Below are positions 10,784 to 52,146 of a stretch of DNA of 53,134 bases, one piece after another; position 1 is the first letter of the stretch, and each line of letters begins with the position of its first letter. This stretch comes from Candidatus Moraniibacteriota bacterium. Lineage in GTDB: Bacteria; Patescibacteriota; Minisyncoccia; Moranbacterales; UBA1568. The stretch lies in contig JAAXXZ010000007.1 of assembly GCA_013334245.1 (NCBI GenBank), positions 1-53,134 on the forward strand, in the 5' to 3' direction. The position numbers were made by a program, and so were the translations under genes. The notes beneath the pieces were generated by a model, which had not been told where the DNA came from, did not search any database, and was given only the letters and a program-made list of their open reading frames with translations.

Positions 10784-10960
10784 GGTCGCAATAAATCAAG
10801 TCCACGAAGATCAAATCCGTTAAATATATCGTGGCTTAAATAAAACATTTCTAAGAATGAACTCCTGTACGACTTCTCCGGTTTCATTCGGACGCACGAC
10901 TTTTTGCCCCGTTAAGCCTCGCTGCTCGGCTTCGAGGCATGCTTTTCTTCTTCCGCCTCC

Positions 10961-11016
10961 GTTGTAAGTTGTAAGTTGTAAGTTGTTAGTTATCAGTGGT
11001 AAGTTGTCAGTTTTCT
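10961..11016. repeat. Degenerate heptamer-periodic tract (GTTGTAA family)
   Basis: GTTGTAA GTTGTAA GTTGTAA GTTGTTA GTTATCA GTGGTAA GTTGTCA GTTTTCT. Confidence 0.9.
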
Positions 11017-11288
11017 TTGACTCCATACTCCCATGCCTTCGCGACGGACTCCGCGATGCGGACCGAGGTGAAGGATTCGGGAATATCGGTCTCTATATCG
11101 AAATGAGTGACGTCGGTCGGAGTAACACCGGACTCCCCGAGAAGGCCATCGATCGCCTCGAAGAGCTGATGCCCCATATCCCGCGCCTCGGGCCACTCGC
11201 GCGACGAAACGGGCTCGCCCCCTTCCAGAAGGGTAAGCCTCGATCCTTCCCTCCCTATTTCCAATCTGAATGCACGTTCCATATCCAA
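11007..11288 (-). CDS. Small protein resembling the N-terminal part of TsaB
   Basis: 93 aa; contains PESFTSVRIAESVAKAWEYG, similar to the TsaB GPGSFTGLRIGxATAKGLA region, preceded by a short RNase H-fold-like start. Flanked on both sides by heptamer tracts. Confidence 0.5.
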   Translation of the reverse strand: MDMERAFRLEIGREGSRLTLLEGGEPVSSREWPEARDMGHQLFEAIDGLLGESGVTPTDVTHFDIETDIPESFTSVRIAESVAKAWEYGVKEN

Positions 11289-22424: not shown

Positions 22425-22465
22425 ACCGGATTGCCTGCGTTGTGTCTCCCTGTTCTTCCTTCTCC

Positions 22466-22555
22466 GTTGTCGGTTGTGAGTTGGTAGTTGAATCTTTTCT
22501 CCCGACATTTCCCGTCCTCCGCTATAAGTTGTTCGTTGTCAGTTGTAAGTTGATT
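22466..22555. repeat. Two heptamer-periodic tracts (GTTGTNN family)
   Basis: GTTGTCG GTTGTGA GTTGGTA GTTGAAT, then GCTATAA GTTGTTC GTTGTCA GTTGTAA GTTGATT, ending next to the nrdA stop. Confidence 0.85.
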
Positions 22556-22556
22556 C

Positions 22557-25172
22557 CTATCCGCTGCAACTCACGCAGTCCTCTTTCACCTCGCCGGAGA
22601 GACTCCGCACGTAATAGACCGTCTTTATTCCTTCGGTCCAGGATCGGACATAGTACTCGTAGAGCTGGGCCGGGCTCGTCCTCGACGGGTCGATCATCCA
22701 CTCGAACGAGATCGACTGATCGATCCACTTGTAGAGCACCGCCATCATGTCGATGACGTCGTCCATGTCCATATGGATATACTCCTTGTAGTGCCAGAAG
22801 TTTTCCGGACTGAGTTTGGGCGCGACGCGCACCGTCGGCGCGGACAGGTTCGTCTCCACGAAGAACTTCTTATAGATCGGCAGCAGTGCCGCCGTCGTAC
22901 CGACCACACCGGCGGTCGAGGTGTTCGGGGCCGGGGCCGTATGGTATGCGAACCGGACACCGTATTCCTTCATGTCGGAAAAGAGTCGTTTCCACGCCGC
23001 GCCGTCCTCGGTATTCTTTTCGAACCACTCCGAATCACGGCCGAGGATCTTTCCGTGGTCGTAGTCGCTCCCTTCGAAAAGCGGGTACCGGCCACGTTCC
23101 TTCGCCAGGTCGACGGACGCGCGATAGGTCGCAAACGCGTATCGTGCGAACAGCCGGTCCACGTTCTCCCGCGCCGCCGCGCTCTCGTAGGCAAGCTTGC
23201 GCGTCGCAAGGTATTCCGCCAGTCCGAGATACCCGAGTCCGACGCTCCGATACCGCATCGCGGTGCGCCTGGCCTCCTGGATCGGGTAGTAGTTGAGCGT
23301 GATCACGTTGTCGAGCATCCGCATCGCGATCGGGATGATCGCATCGATCGTTTCCTTATCGTTCACCTTCGCCACGTTGATGGAGGCAAGGTTGCAGACG
23401 ACCGTATCTCCCGGATCGTATTTGATCAGCACCTTCCCGTCCTCGAGCGTCTCTTCCACGAACTTCGAGGCGGACGTATTCTGACAGATCTCGGTGCAGA
23501 GCTGCGAAGAATAGATGTTGCCCGCATGCCGGTTCGGATTGAGACGGTTCACCGTGTCGCGGAAAAACACGTACGGCATGCCGGTCTCCACCACCGTCTT
23601 CAGGAATTTCTTGAAGAGCTCCTTGGCCGGAACGGTCTTCTTCATGGTCAGCCGGTCGTCGGCCTCCGCCTCGAGATAGAACGCCTCGAACGCGTCGCCG
23701 AAATGGTCCTGCAGGTTCTTCCCGTAGACGCGCCACACCTCGTGCGGATCGAACAGCGTGATGTCGCCGTTCTCCTTGAGCCGTTTCATGAAAAGGTCCG
23801 GAACGGATATCGCCGGGAAGATATCATATGCCTTGGAGCGCACGTCTCCCGTTTCCGTCTGCAAATCGAGGAAGTCGTAGATGTCGTGATGCCAGATATC
23901 GAGCGTCACCGAGATCGCCCCGAGACGGCTGCCGAGCTGGTTCACCGCGATCGCCGTATCATTGATCACCTTGACCCACGGATTCACCCCGCCCGACATG
24001 CCCATGACTCCGCGGATGGCACTGCCGCGCGCGCGGATATTGCCCAAATACACGCCGACGCCTCCGCCGAACTTCGAGATCTGCGCGATATTCTCCACCG
24101 CGTGATAGATCGCACGAAGGTCGTCATCGACGTTCAGCTTGAAACAGCTCGAGAGCTGATGGAACGTCGTCCGCGCGTTCATGAGCGACGGGGTCGCGAG
24201 CGACACCTGCTGCCGTGCGCACGCGAGGTACATGGCGACGGCCGTATCGATCCGTGTCTCTTTCGGCTCCGGCATTGCCAGGAACAATCCCACGAAGAAA
24301 TACATCTCCTGCGGAAGTTCGCGGATGATCTTGTTCGGATTCAGGAGGTAGCGCTTCTGAAGCGACAGTATCGTGGTATAGCCGTACGACAGGTCAAGCG
24401 TCGCGTCGATGCGCGCGGCAGCCGAAAGGATATCTTCGTCGGAATACGCCTCACGGAATTCCTTGGCATAGAGTCCCTTGCCGATATAGTCGCGGAAATG
24501 TGCGAGTACCGCCTCCGGCTTGTAGATATCGCTATGCGAGATGCCACGGTTCCGGCACGCCTCCTTGTAAAGGTTGAAGAGCGCGATACGGCCGGCGACC
24601 TCCTGCCAATGGATGTTTTCCACGGTCACAAGGTCGATACACGTCTTCACCAACAGCTTGTTGATATCCGACGTCTTGATCTCGTCGACGATATTGCGCT
24701 TAAACGCCTCGACGAGGTCCTCGAACCGGCACCACTCTCCGTAGCCCTCGACTGCCCGGTCGAATACGGCACGGATCTTGCCGATCTCGAAGAGCTCCTT
24801 CGAGCCATCGCTCTTGGTCACCTGGAGCGAGCGCTTTTCGAATCGTTCGACCAGCTTCTCCCGGCGCTCGTCGCGCTCCTCGTTTCGCTTCTCGCGATAG
24901 AGGATATACGCTTTGCCGATCTCGTACCGGTTCTCCTTCACGAGATGCTTCTCCACCAGGTCCTGTACGTCCTCCACGTCCACGACGTGTCCCTCGCCCT
25001 TCTCGCCGTGCGCATGCACGAGGTCGGCGACGATGTCATCCGTCATCTTCGCTATGAACGACTTGTCCGTCTCGCCCGTCGCGTCGCAGGCAGCCTCAAT
25101 AGCACGCTCGATTTTCGAGCGGTCGAACGGAGCGAGCTCGCCGCTCCGCAGTTTTATGTCTTTCAGGTTCAT
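22557..25172 (-). CDS. nrdA: Ribonucleoside-diphosphate reductase alpha subunit with N-terminal ATP-cone
   Basis: ATP-cone-like N-terminus (FDRSKIERAIEAACDATGE), catalytic core (SLATPSLMNARTTFHQLSSCF; LCTEICQNTS), C-terminal CVSCSG. Confidence 0.95.
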   Translation of the reverse strand: MNLKDIKLRSGELAPFDRSKIERAIEAACDATGETDKSFIAKMTDDIVADLVHAHGEKGEGHVVDVEDVQDLVEKHLVKENRYEIGKAYILYREKRNEERDERREKLVERFEKRSLQVTKSDGSKELFEIGKIRAVFDRAVEGYGEWCRFEDLVEAFKRNIVDEIKTSDINKLLVKTCIDLVTVENIHWQEVAGRIALFNLYKEACRNRGISHSDIYKPEAVLAHFRDYIGKGLYAKEFREAYSDEDILSAAARIDATLDLSYGYTTILSLQKRYLLNPNKIIRELPQEMYFFVGLFLAMPEPKETRIDTAVAMYLACARQQVSLATPSLMNARTTFHQLSSCFKLNVDDDLRAIYHAVENIAQISKFGGGVGVYLGNIRARGSAIRGVMGMSGGVNPWVKVINDTAIAVNQLGSRLGAISVTLDIWHHDIYDFLDLQTETGDVRSKAYDIFPAISVPDLFMKRLKENGDITLFDPHEVWRVYGKNLQDHFGDAFEAFYLEAEADDRLTMKKTVPAKELFKKFLKTVVETGMPYVFFRDTVNRLNPNRHAGNIYSSQLCTEICQNTSASKFVEETLEDGKVLIKYDPGDTVVCNLASINVAKVNDKETIDAIIPIAMRMLDNVITLNYYPIQEARRTAMRYRSVGLGYLGLAEYLATRKLAYESAAARENVDRLFARYAFATYRASVDLAKERGRYPLFEGSDYDHGKILGRDSEWFEKNTEDGAAWKRLFSDMKEYGVRFAYHTAPAPNTSTAGVVGTTAALLPIYKKFFVETNLSAPTVRVAPKLSPENFWHYKEYIHMDMDDVIDMMAVLYKWIDQSISFEWMIDPSRTSPAQLYEYYVRSWTEGIKTVYYVRSLSGEVKEDCVSCSG

Positions 25173-27998: not shown

Positions 27999-28193
27999 TG
28001 GGGTCTATTGATTTCCATATTCGGTTTTATGTAACGGGAATTCCGCGTCGATTGCTCGTCGACACTCGCTCGCTCCTTGTCCGCGGTGACGCTAAATGCT
28101 CCTTTGGTCGCATTCATCGACGCTCTCCTGCACTGCCTTTCTACTGAAAAGCAGTTTGTTTCGCTTTCACCGGTTCGATTCCCGTACTACCCT

Positions 28194-28324: not shown

Positions 28325-28470
28325 GGAATCGTCCGGCATACGCTACACCACTCGCTCTCCTCGTGGCGTACCCTTTGCATGCCGGGGCGAACCCGTGTCC
28401 ATAGCTTGGCAACGTCGCTCGTGAGCGACGTGCCGAGGGAAGCTAGTGTACTACCAACCACTATACCCGC
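28325..28470 (-). pseudogene. Interrupted tRNA-Gly copy with hairpin insertions in the T-loop and the anticodon loop
   Basis: 5' part matches the tRNA-Gly(CCC) gene with some divergence; a 56-nt insert at 28332..28387 in the T-loop and about 28 nt at 28410..28437 in the anticodon loop; no matching 3' acceptor strand. Confidence 0.85.
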
Positions 28471-34633: not shown

Positions 34634-34648
34634 TGAGCGGGTGATGGG
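34634..34648. repeat. Direct copy of the tRNA-Gly(UCC) 3' end
   Basis: TGAGCGGGTGATGGG repeated exactly at 34837..34851, 203 bp apart. Confidence 0.85.
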
Positions 34649-34658
34649 TACTGAAAAC

Positions 34659-34708
34659 TTCGTCCTCGACGCCTGCTGGCGTCTCGTTGCCCAGGGCAGC
34701 GTTGAATG
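34659..34708. repeat. Dispersed repeat, copy B
   Basis: TTCGTCCTCGACGCCTGCTGGCGTCTCGTTGCCCAGGGCAGCGTTGAATG; near-identical to 27860..27908. Confidence 0.8.
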
Positions 34709-34790
34709 CTTCCTATCCGGTCGCATTCACCGACACTCGGTTCGCTCGCCTCCGCTCGCGCCTCGTTTCTGCCCGTTCGATTCCCATGAC

Positions 34791-35715: not shown

Positions 35716-35770
35716 ACGATTCGTTCTAACTTTTTATCCGATATCGAAGACTGTCATGTAATTCTTATGT

Positions 35771-35840
35771 CGGGGCACTCGGAATCGAACCGAGACTACC
35801 TACTCCCAAGGCAGGCGTACTACCACTATACTATGCCCCG
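35771..35840 (-). tRNA. tRNA-Pro(UGG)
   Basis: Reverse complement CGGGGCATAGTATAGTGGTAGTACGCCTGCCTTGGGAGTAGGTAGTCTCGGTTCGATTCCGAGTGCCCCG; anticodon loop CTTGGGA gives TGG. Confidence 0.93.
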
Positions 35841-35904: not shown

Positions 35905-36001
35905 GGAATCGCCCCAGCATTCGCGGGGCGTCCGGCGTATGCCGGACGAACCGAGACTACCTACTCCCAAGGCAGGCGTACTACCACTATACTATGCCCC
36001 G
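35905..36001 (-). pseudogene. Interrupted tRNA-Pro copy with a 35-nt hairpin element in the T-loop
   Basis: 35947..36001 is identical to the tRNA-Pro 5' part; insert at 35912..35946; followed by only GGAATCG, with no acceptor 3' strand. Confidence 0.88.
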
Positions 36002-42167: not shown

Positions 42168-42195
42168 AACTTACAACCTACAACTCACAACAAAC
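42168..42195. repeat. Heptamer-periodic tract (AACNNAC; reverse complement of the GTTGTAA family)
   Basis: AACTTAC AACCTAC AACTCAC AACAAAC. Confidence 0.75.
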
Positions 42196-42227
42196 GACGG
42201 AAAAACCATAGCCCGTTGCTCGTCACC

Positions 42228-42262
42228 GATTGTCAGTTGTCAGCTTTCAGTTGTTAGTTAGT
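42228..42262. repeat. Heptamer-periodic tract (AGTTGTC) containing the ppa stop codon
   Basis: GATTGTC AGTTGTC AGCTTTC AGTTGTT AGTTAGT. Confidence 0.75.
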
Positions 42263-51770: not shown

Positions 51771-51885
51771 GGAAAGGTGACCGAGTGGTTGAAGGTACCG
51801 CTCTCGAAAAGCGGCAGGCCCGCAAGGGCCTCGAGGGTTCGTCCGAGCATACGCCGGACGCCCCGCGCATGCGGGGCGAATCCCT
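51771..51885 (+). pseudogene. Interrupted tRNA-Ser copy with a 35-nt hairpin element in the T-loop
   Basis: 51771..51841 is identical to 51939..52009 of the intact tRNA; insert TCCGAGCATACGCCGGACGCCCCGCGCATGCGGGG at 51842..51876; then CGAATCCCT and no acceptor strand. Confidence 0.9.
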
Positions 51886-51938
51886 GACCGAAATCGGGAG
51901 GATCATTTCGAACAATAGTATATACTGTTAGATATGCT

Positions 51939-52025
51939 GGAAAGGTGACCGAGTGGTTGAAGGTACCGCTCTCGAAAAGCGGCAGGCCCGCAAGGGCCTC
52001 GAGGGTTCGAATCCCTCCCTTTCCT
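51939..52025 (+). tRNA. tRNA-Ser(CGA)
   Basis: GGAAAGGTGACCGAGTGGTTGAAGGTACCGCTCTCGAAAAGCGGCAGGCCCGCAAGGGCCTCGAGGGTTCGAATCCCTCCCTTTCCT; long variable arm; anticodon CGA. Confidence 0.95.
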
Positions 52026-52128
52026 CAGTGAACAACGTGAACGCAGGAAAGGAGAAAGCAAACTGCTTTGCTTTCGGGAGGGATGAGAAGGGACTTTTCT
52101 TAAAAGAAAAGTCCCCGGCTCGAAGAGG

Positions 52129-52146
52129 AATCCCTCCCTTTCCTCA
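52129..52146 (+). repeat. Direct copy of the tRNA-Ser 3' end
   Basis: AATCCCTCCCTTTCCTCA, exact repeat of 52010..52027, 119 bp downstream. Confidence 0.9.

Follow-up and report, generated by a model that had tools for sequence, protein, structure and literature searches.

A double hairpin in the T-loop of partial tRNA copies of Patescibacteria, most likely what remains of small tRNA-gene parasites with an endonuclease

Closest described systems

The mORFs of fungal mitochondria bring with them a duplicate of the host gene's 3' part, as in atp6 of Allomyces and atp6, atp9, cox2 and nad3 of Glomus (PMC3630166). They are mostly of the LAGLIDADG type, with one GIY-YIG case, and the carried copy was acquired from a donor (PMC3630166). 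The units described below resemble these mORFs in that an essential gene has taken up an endonuclease ORF along with a copy of whatever part it lost; this copy makes the gene whole again, and the displaced native part is left as a remnant. In contrast to the mitochondrial protein genes of fungi, the hosts here are bacterial tRNA genes, the breaks fall in loops, and hairpin plugs stand at the junction. Moreover, either the 5' or the 3' part is restored, and the copies are identical in type to their host.

Double-hairpin and other repetitive hairpin-forming elements in the mitochondria of fungi and sponges are thought to be mobile by an unknown mechanism (PMC2800124). The bacterial double hairpin (F1) shares with them short tandem hairpins and a patchy presence among close relatives. 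However, the mitochondrial elements occupy intergenic DNA as well as rRNA and other genes, whereas F1 was found only in the T-loops of partial tRNAs; its CG junctions and loop motifs are conserved, and GIY-YIG genes stand beside some of its copies.

Other known systems are less similar. The unit ORFs resemble the catalytic domains of GIY-YIG homing endonucleases (I-TevI) and of UPF0213/SLX1-type proteins, but they are small and have neither a recognisable DNA-binding module nor an intron around them. REPINs, mobilised by RAYT (Y1), also consist of two hairpins in inverted arrangement with a phylogenetically patchy distribution. In contrast, the site of F1 is a tRNA loop, and the relatives G001 and G004 carry F1 with no Y1 transposase match, for which reason this enzyme was rejected as the mover. 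The palindromic elements of Rickettsia, which the initial annotation had offered as a loose analogue, are likewise small palindromic inserts in genes. They are larger than F1, lie in frame in protein genes or in RNA genes, and are not known to be linked to partial tRNA duplication. They are a poor match, and the fungal double-hairpin and host-fragment endonuclease elements are closer. The nearest design is the fungal mitochondrial endonuclease element with a duplicated gene end (PMC3630166), and the nearest insert the double-hairpin element (PMC2800124). In the literature searched, with most subscription papers outside its reach, bacterial tRNA genes did not appear as hosts of either system, and no paper joined Patescibacteria, tRNA genes and GIY-YIG.

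The tRNA-Ser(CGA) locus and the double hairpin

The window, which is the whole stretch of DNA analysed (53,134 nt), is an entire contig of a 1.12-Mb genome (G000). Six genomes of the genus were compared, G000 included, and G001-G004 denote relatives among them. The tRNA-Ser(CGA) locus has the following parts.

51771-51841, plus strand: 5' remnant of tRNA-Ser(CGA), nucleotides 1-71, identical to the intact copy
51842-51876, plus strand: 35-nt double hairpin F1, TCCGAGCATACGCCGGACGCCCCGCGCATGCGGGG, with the first hairpin (H1) at 51842-51858, a CG linker, and the second hairpin (H2) at 51861-51876
51877-51885, plus strand: remaining T-arm half of the broken tRNA-Ser, CGAATCCCT, with TTCG...CGAA closed around the double hairpin
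51886-51938, plus strand: unit spacer between the broken and intact tRNA-Ser(CGA), from cross-genome locus comparison
51939-52026, plus strand: intact tRNA-Ser(CGA), called by ARAGORN
52009-52127, plus strand: second unit at tRNA-Ser(CGA), of the 3' type (F4), a 119-bp insertion, from locus comparison
52128-52145, plus strand: 3' remnant of tRNA-Ser(CGA), nucleotides 71-88, the original 3' end, by match to the intact gene

The broken and intact copies are identical at 71 of 71 nt (51771-51841 against 51939-52009), and the 35-nt insert occupies the T-loop of the broken copy at 51842-51876; the initial annotation had both right. Unrelated DNA follows CGAATCCCT in the broken copy, and the downstream copy is the only one that ARAGORN calls. 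The F1 unit is present at this locus in G000 and G001, a D-loop unit takes its place in G003, and G002 has nothing. The unit spacer recurs at the same locus in G001 and is absent from G003 and from the empty site of G002, where a promoter-like leader is joined directly to the tRNA. G001 has an extra D-loop unit upstream. Downstream of the gene, G000 has exactly 119 bp more than G001 and G003; this F4 unit starts in the T-loop and carries a new tRNA 3' end along. Further filled and empty pairs were found at Thr(GGT), Asn, Glu(TTC) and Pro(CGG), that of Thr(GGT) with a 24-nt direct repeat extending past the tRNA end. The presence of units is patchy among close relatives and their type varies at the same tRNA. 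These comparisons of orthologous loci show gain, loss or replacement, and are compatible with either direction and with more than one mechanism.

Other tRNA loci of the window carry related features.

35947-36001, minus strand: 5' remnant of tRNA-Pro(TGG), nucleotides 1-55, identical to the intact copy
35912-35946, minus strand: F1 inside the broken tRNA-Pro(TGG), an exact copy of the tRNA-Ser 35-mer
35769-35840, minus strand: intact tRNA-Pro(TGG), called by ARAGORN
28437-28470, minus strand: 5' remnant of tRNA-Gly(CCC), by match to that tRNA
28332-28387, minus strand: F1-like but longer hairpin, T-loop of the broken tRNA-Gly(CCC), a diverged relative and not the same 35-mer
28033-28187, minus strand: structured RNA F2 behind tRNA-Gly(CCC), from a structured-RNA search
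34650-34789, minus strand: structured RNA F2 behind tRNA-Gly(TCC), followed by a 3' tRNA remnant at 34635-34648

The same element had been reported in two other tRNA copies of the window, which holds for Pro(TGG) but not for Gly(CCC).

F1 is a phylum-wide element of Patescibacteria located in the T-loop of partial tRNA copies. Its core pattern occurs six times in its own genome, always within the T-loop of a partial copy that neighbours an intact tRNA of that type; the hosts are Ser(CGA), Pro(TGG), Pro(GGG), Val(TAC) and Tyr(GTA), plus Pro(CGG) as a 3'-type remnant. A seventh match, with two mismatches, lies outside any tRNA context. All six genomes of the genus contain F1. An exact scan of GTDB (84,980 genomes) gave 23 matches outside the own genome, of which 22 lie in tRNA T-arms, in records mostly titled Moranbacteria or other Patescibacteria; the remaining one is a chance coding match in a proteobacterial record with no tRNA context. 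Mostly random sites, which would have refuted the initial annotation, are thus the opposite of what was found, and its notion of a discrete double hairpin repeated at one precise site (TCGA of the T-loop) in several tRNA copies is well supported. A covariance model gave matches in 26 further genomes of a 380-genome Patescibacteria sample; every full-length match with E<=2e-7 is in the T-arm of a partial tRNA, and weaker ones are mostly chance. The strict pattern had no match in viral contigs, and a relaxed pattern had two there, neither with tRNA context and both apparently due to chance.

In the sense of the tRNA, the element is parsed as GTTCG-H1-CG-H2-CGA-N-(T/C)C. The junctions TTCG-H1-CG-H2-CGANTC are constant among 34 distinct inserts, with the CG linker in 32 of them, while C-G, G-C, T-A and A-T pairs exchange freely in the stems. 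Pair 4 of H1, for instance, is C-G in 13 inserts, G-C in 13, T-A in three and A-T in two, and is paired in 32 of 34 against a shuffled mean of 14; such counts lean to structure because structural parsing favours parses that pair, although both flanks and nearly all linkers are fixed in sequence. Pair counting on MAFFT alignments was weak, as stem lengths vary and it covered near-identical copies only, and was replaced by this phylum-wide parsing. The loops are often CATNCG and CGNATG, which are inverse complements, so F1 is nearly symmetric; an analysis of its orientation was dropped for that reason. The covariation among the 34 inserts shows two adjacent hairpins kept by structure, as in double-hairpin elements, but F1 was found in tRNA T-arms only, not scattered among intergenic, rRNA and other-gene sites. 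The 2-bp CG target duplication suggested initially is compatible with the junctions, yet indistinguishable from an insert ending in CG, because CG stands at all three of them (TTCG-H1-CG-H2-CGAN). The initial annotation is real but too narrow; the 35-mer is one conserved part of larger units that combine a partial tRNA copy with hairpin(s), an intact tRNA and either a spacer or a GIY-YIG ORF.

tRNA remnants and GIY-YIG genes

In the own genome, 21 of 45 tRNA genes (47%) have a remnant of the same type nearby, compared with 1.6-2.4% in controls. A remnant here means that 14 nt or more of the tRNA recur exactly in its same-strand flanks, and the 1.6% is for another tRNA as query. Three relatives have remnants at 10 of 42, 19 of 43 and 14 of 38 tRNA genes, with controls of 1-3%. 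The remnant is in each case of the tRNA's own type, and many remnants are eroded. In four genomes, 26 of 28 5' remnants start at nucleotide 1, and 22 of the 28 end in the D-, anticodon- or T-loop; 40 of 45 3' remnants begin in a loop. Altogether the inner ends of 62 of 73 remnants lie in one of the three loops, counts that include tandem and orthologous copies and are hence non-independent. As the break points track the tRNA loops, including the poorly conserved anticodon loop, there is a hint that the folded tRNA shape matters; selection for harmless folded remnants could give an equal pattern.

Hairpins other than F1 occupy the junctions of similar units. TCACCC-NAA-GGGTGA-CCAGCC-TCT-GGCTGG stands in place of F1 at TT^CA in the Thr(GGT) T-loop and in the Glu(TTC) anticodon loop; the Trp, Lys, Ser and Asn units have single hairpins instead of F1. 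Such other hairpins occur at D- and anticodon-loop junctions with GIY-YIG ORFs directly after them.

A PF01541 search of the own genome found eight small GIY-YIG genes and a long, UvrC-like one. Six of the eight adjoin tRNAs and have tRNA remnants at their loci. Across the genus (six genomes), 18 of the 27 small GIY-YIG genes are no more than 500 nt from a tRNA, where simple arithmetic from tRNA density predicts about 4%. At phylum level a GIY-YIG match is present in 106 of 116 Patescibacteria genomes, with up to 16 per genome; only seven of the 30 top-scoring loci are within 500 nt of a tRNA, and many GIY-YIG genes thus do something else. ORFs of this kind lie between remnant and intact tRNA in Tyr, Trp, Asn, Lys and Glu units, and in none of the window's own units. 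In the Tyr, Asn and Lys units the ORF overlaps the 5' end of the intact tRNA, which supplies the stop codon. The unit ORFs match PF01541 and, in a PDB sequence search, UPF0213 (1zg2), I-TevI (1mk0) and SLX1 (7cq2). Their proteins have ~80-120 aa, no recognisable DNA-binding module and no surrounding intron. Most F1 copies have no adjacent ORF. An ORF-less tRNA-Tyr unit (L081) still has F1, together with the tail of an ORF similar to the C-terminus of the GIY-YIG proteins, which is suggestive of an origin by internal deletion.

A small GIY-YIG gene of G000 (L059, C29:11833-12045) lies close to a putative 23S rRNA, judged from typical spurious ORFs, and hosts may therefore extend beyond tRNA genes.

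Origin of the units and further structured inserts

The anatomy of the units, the loop-restricted breaks, the T-arm confinement, the stem covariation, the association of GIY-YIG genes with tRNAs and the state differences at orthologous loci are directly observed. The double hairpin is most likely what remains of small parasites, equipped with an endonuclease, that insert in tRNA genes and leave a working tRNA. As in the fungal elements, the units (Tyr, Trp, Asn, Lys, Glu) contain an endonuclease ORF, and direct repeats and empty sites indicate a host gene restored by the carried copy with the native part as remnant. These are probably mobile cassettes which break into tRNA genes at loops and make the tRNA complete again with the copy they carry, the 35-mer being their conserved T-loop junction. 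A complete 5'-type unit consists, in order, of the ancestral promoter and leader, the tRNA 5' part from nucleotide 1 to a loop, the hairpin(s), a small GIY-YIG ORF, and a fresh tRNA 5' copy fused to the old 3' part, which gives a full tRNA again; the 3'-type unit is its mirror image. The GIY-YIG protein may cut tRNA genes, or their branched DNA form, at loops, and repair would then copy the unit into the cut gene, an insertion made tolerable by the restored tRNA. Units with no ORF, such as those of the window, would be decayed or non-autonomous. The double hairpin could be a unit end or plug that prevents re-cutting or the maturation of the broken copy.

Against mobile cassettes stands the intact restored tRNA, which retains the presumed target loop, so that a homing endonuclease of the classical kind would also cleave the unit that carries it; no immunity feature was found. 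The many GIY-YIG loci far from tRNAs at phylum level and the F1 copies with no adjacent ORF count against it too. Recognition may need more than the tRNA sequence (flank, branched DNA), the enzyme may act on incoming DNA only, or the GIY-YIG gene may be a passenger. Moreover, since each remnant matches its own tRNA type, spread between types needs a new type-specific copy step. In a wider and tentative version of the same idea, F1, F2 and other structured elements would be phylum-wide tRNA-loop parasites that target the tRNA fold in the D-, anticodon- and T-loops, and rebuild the tRNA each time, with small GIY-YIG nucleases that work on folded (branched) tRNA-gene DNA or RNA as the driving force.

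It is less likely that the double hairpin is itself mobile, inserting at the T-loop TCGA with CG duplication and surviving only in redundant tRNA fragments, with fragments and GIY-YIG genes of separate origin. F1 does interrupt an otherwise continuous T-arm (GGTTCG-F1-CGANTCC) with constant junctions and 7-9 nt of the same tRNA beyond, and 5'- and 3'-type remnants carry it alike. However, no F1 was found outside tRNA remnants though TCGA is common, and like units have other hairpin families at D- and anticodon-loop junctions with GIY-YIG ORFs directly after.

We consider it improbable that the units are host-useful RNAs, i.e. capped tRNA-like transcripts (decoys, processing or regulatory signals) under selection. 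The patchiness among close relatives, the different types at the same tRNA, the many eroded remnants and the association with nuclease genes all speak against such a role, while the strong structural conservation of F1 and the existence of F2, a second phylum-wide structured RNA behind many tRNA genes that begins with an inverted host T-arm, speak for it. The full (100%) identity of remnants and intact tRNA seen in two species also fits selection, but gene conversion between direct repeats can bring it about as well.

It is very unlikely that the units are what is left of integrative elements, whose tyrosine integrase would have used the tRNA gene for attachment and whose att repeats would be the remnants. 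Direct repeats of a tRNA part do flank an insert, and the 3' remnants, from T-loop to tRNA end, are the classic att region; on the other hand, the units are ~100-400 bp, those read carry GIY-YIG ORFs only and no integrase gene, 5' remnants with D- and anticodon-loop breaks are untypical, and a hairpin stands at the junction. Chance tandem duplication or an assembly artefact can practically be dismissed: assembly is known to have trouble with tandem repeats near tRNAs, but the same unit stands at the tRNA-Ser gene in an independent species assembly (G001/L087), similar ones occur in many other genomes, independent assemblies of several species share units and give exact empty sites, and remnants accompany 47% of tRNAs against ~2% in controls.

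Rfam matches up to E=3, a lax threshold, included no known ribozyme, intron or mobile-element family. A group I intron in the tRNA was rejected because these matches hold no intron family and the broken copy has no 3' exon. A reverse transcriptase was also rejected as the mover, as its gene is present in all six genomes of the genus with nothing linking it to tRNA loci; in the own genome the reverse-transcriptase domain gene lies at C20:33049-33759.

In these reduced genomes, tRNA genes are near-essential and mostly single-copy, and about half still bear nested insertion scars. If mobile, the units would be a compact way for a parasite to inhabit an essential RNA gene without splicing. They may help to explain the abundance of small GIY-YIG genes in Patescibacteria and the pseudo-copies met in tRNA annotation of this phylum, and the loop-restricted break points make possible a direct test of GIY-YIG recognition of the tRNA fold.

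F2 is a structured RNA of ~130 nt behind intact tRNA genes, also at L254-L282. Its first part is the T-arm of the host tRNA in inverted copy, which in tRNA-Gln reaches as far as the whole 3' end, and a 3' tRNA remnant marks where it ends. It occurs in 15 of 287 sampled Patescibacteria genomes, and had no Rfam match in the stretches scanned. Behind tRNA-Gln(TTG) of G000 (L049, 5631-6127; C31) are four successive inverted copies of the gene's own 3' end, three with F2-type cores; they look like stacked insertions.

Another family of structured inserts, F3 (...CGGTGCCTA..CCGAG..GACGG..GAGAGG(T/C)GA(A/G)GGAGA), lies behind tRNA-Arg, -Lys and -Asn and before 3' remnants starting in the T-loop (L045, L042, L041, L053). 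Short GTTGTCAGTTGTTAG-type repeats are present in the window at 10947-11022, 22452-22561 and 42168-42262, and in relatives similar repeats lie immediately upstream of several intact tRNAs.
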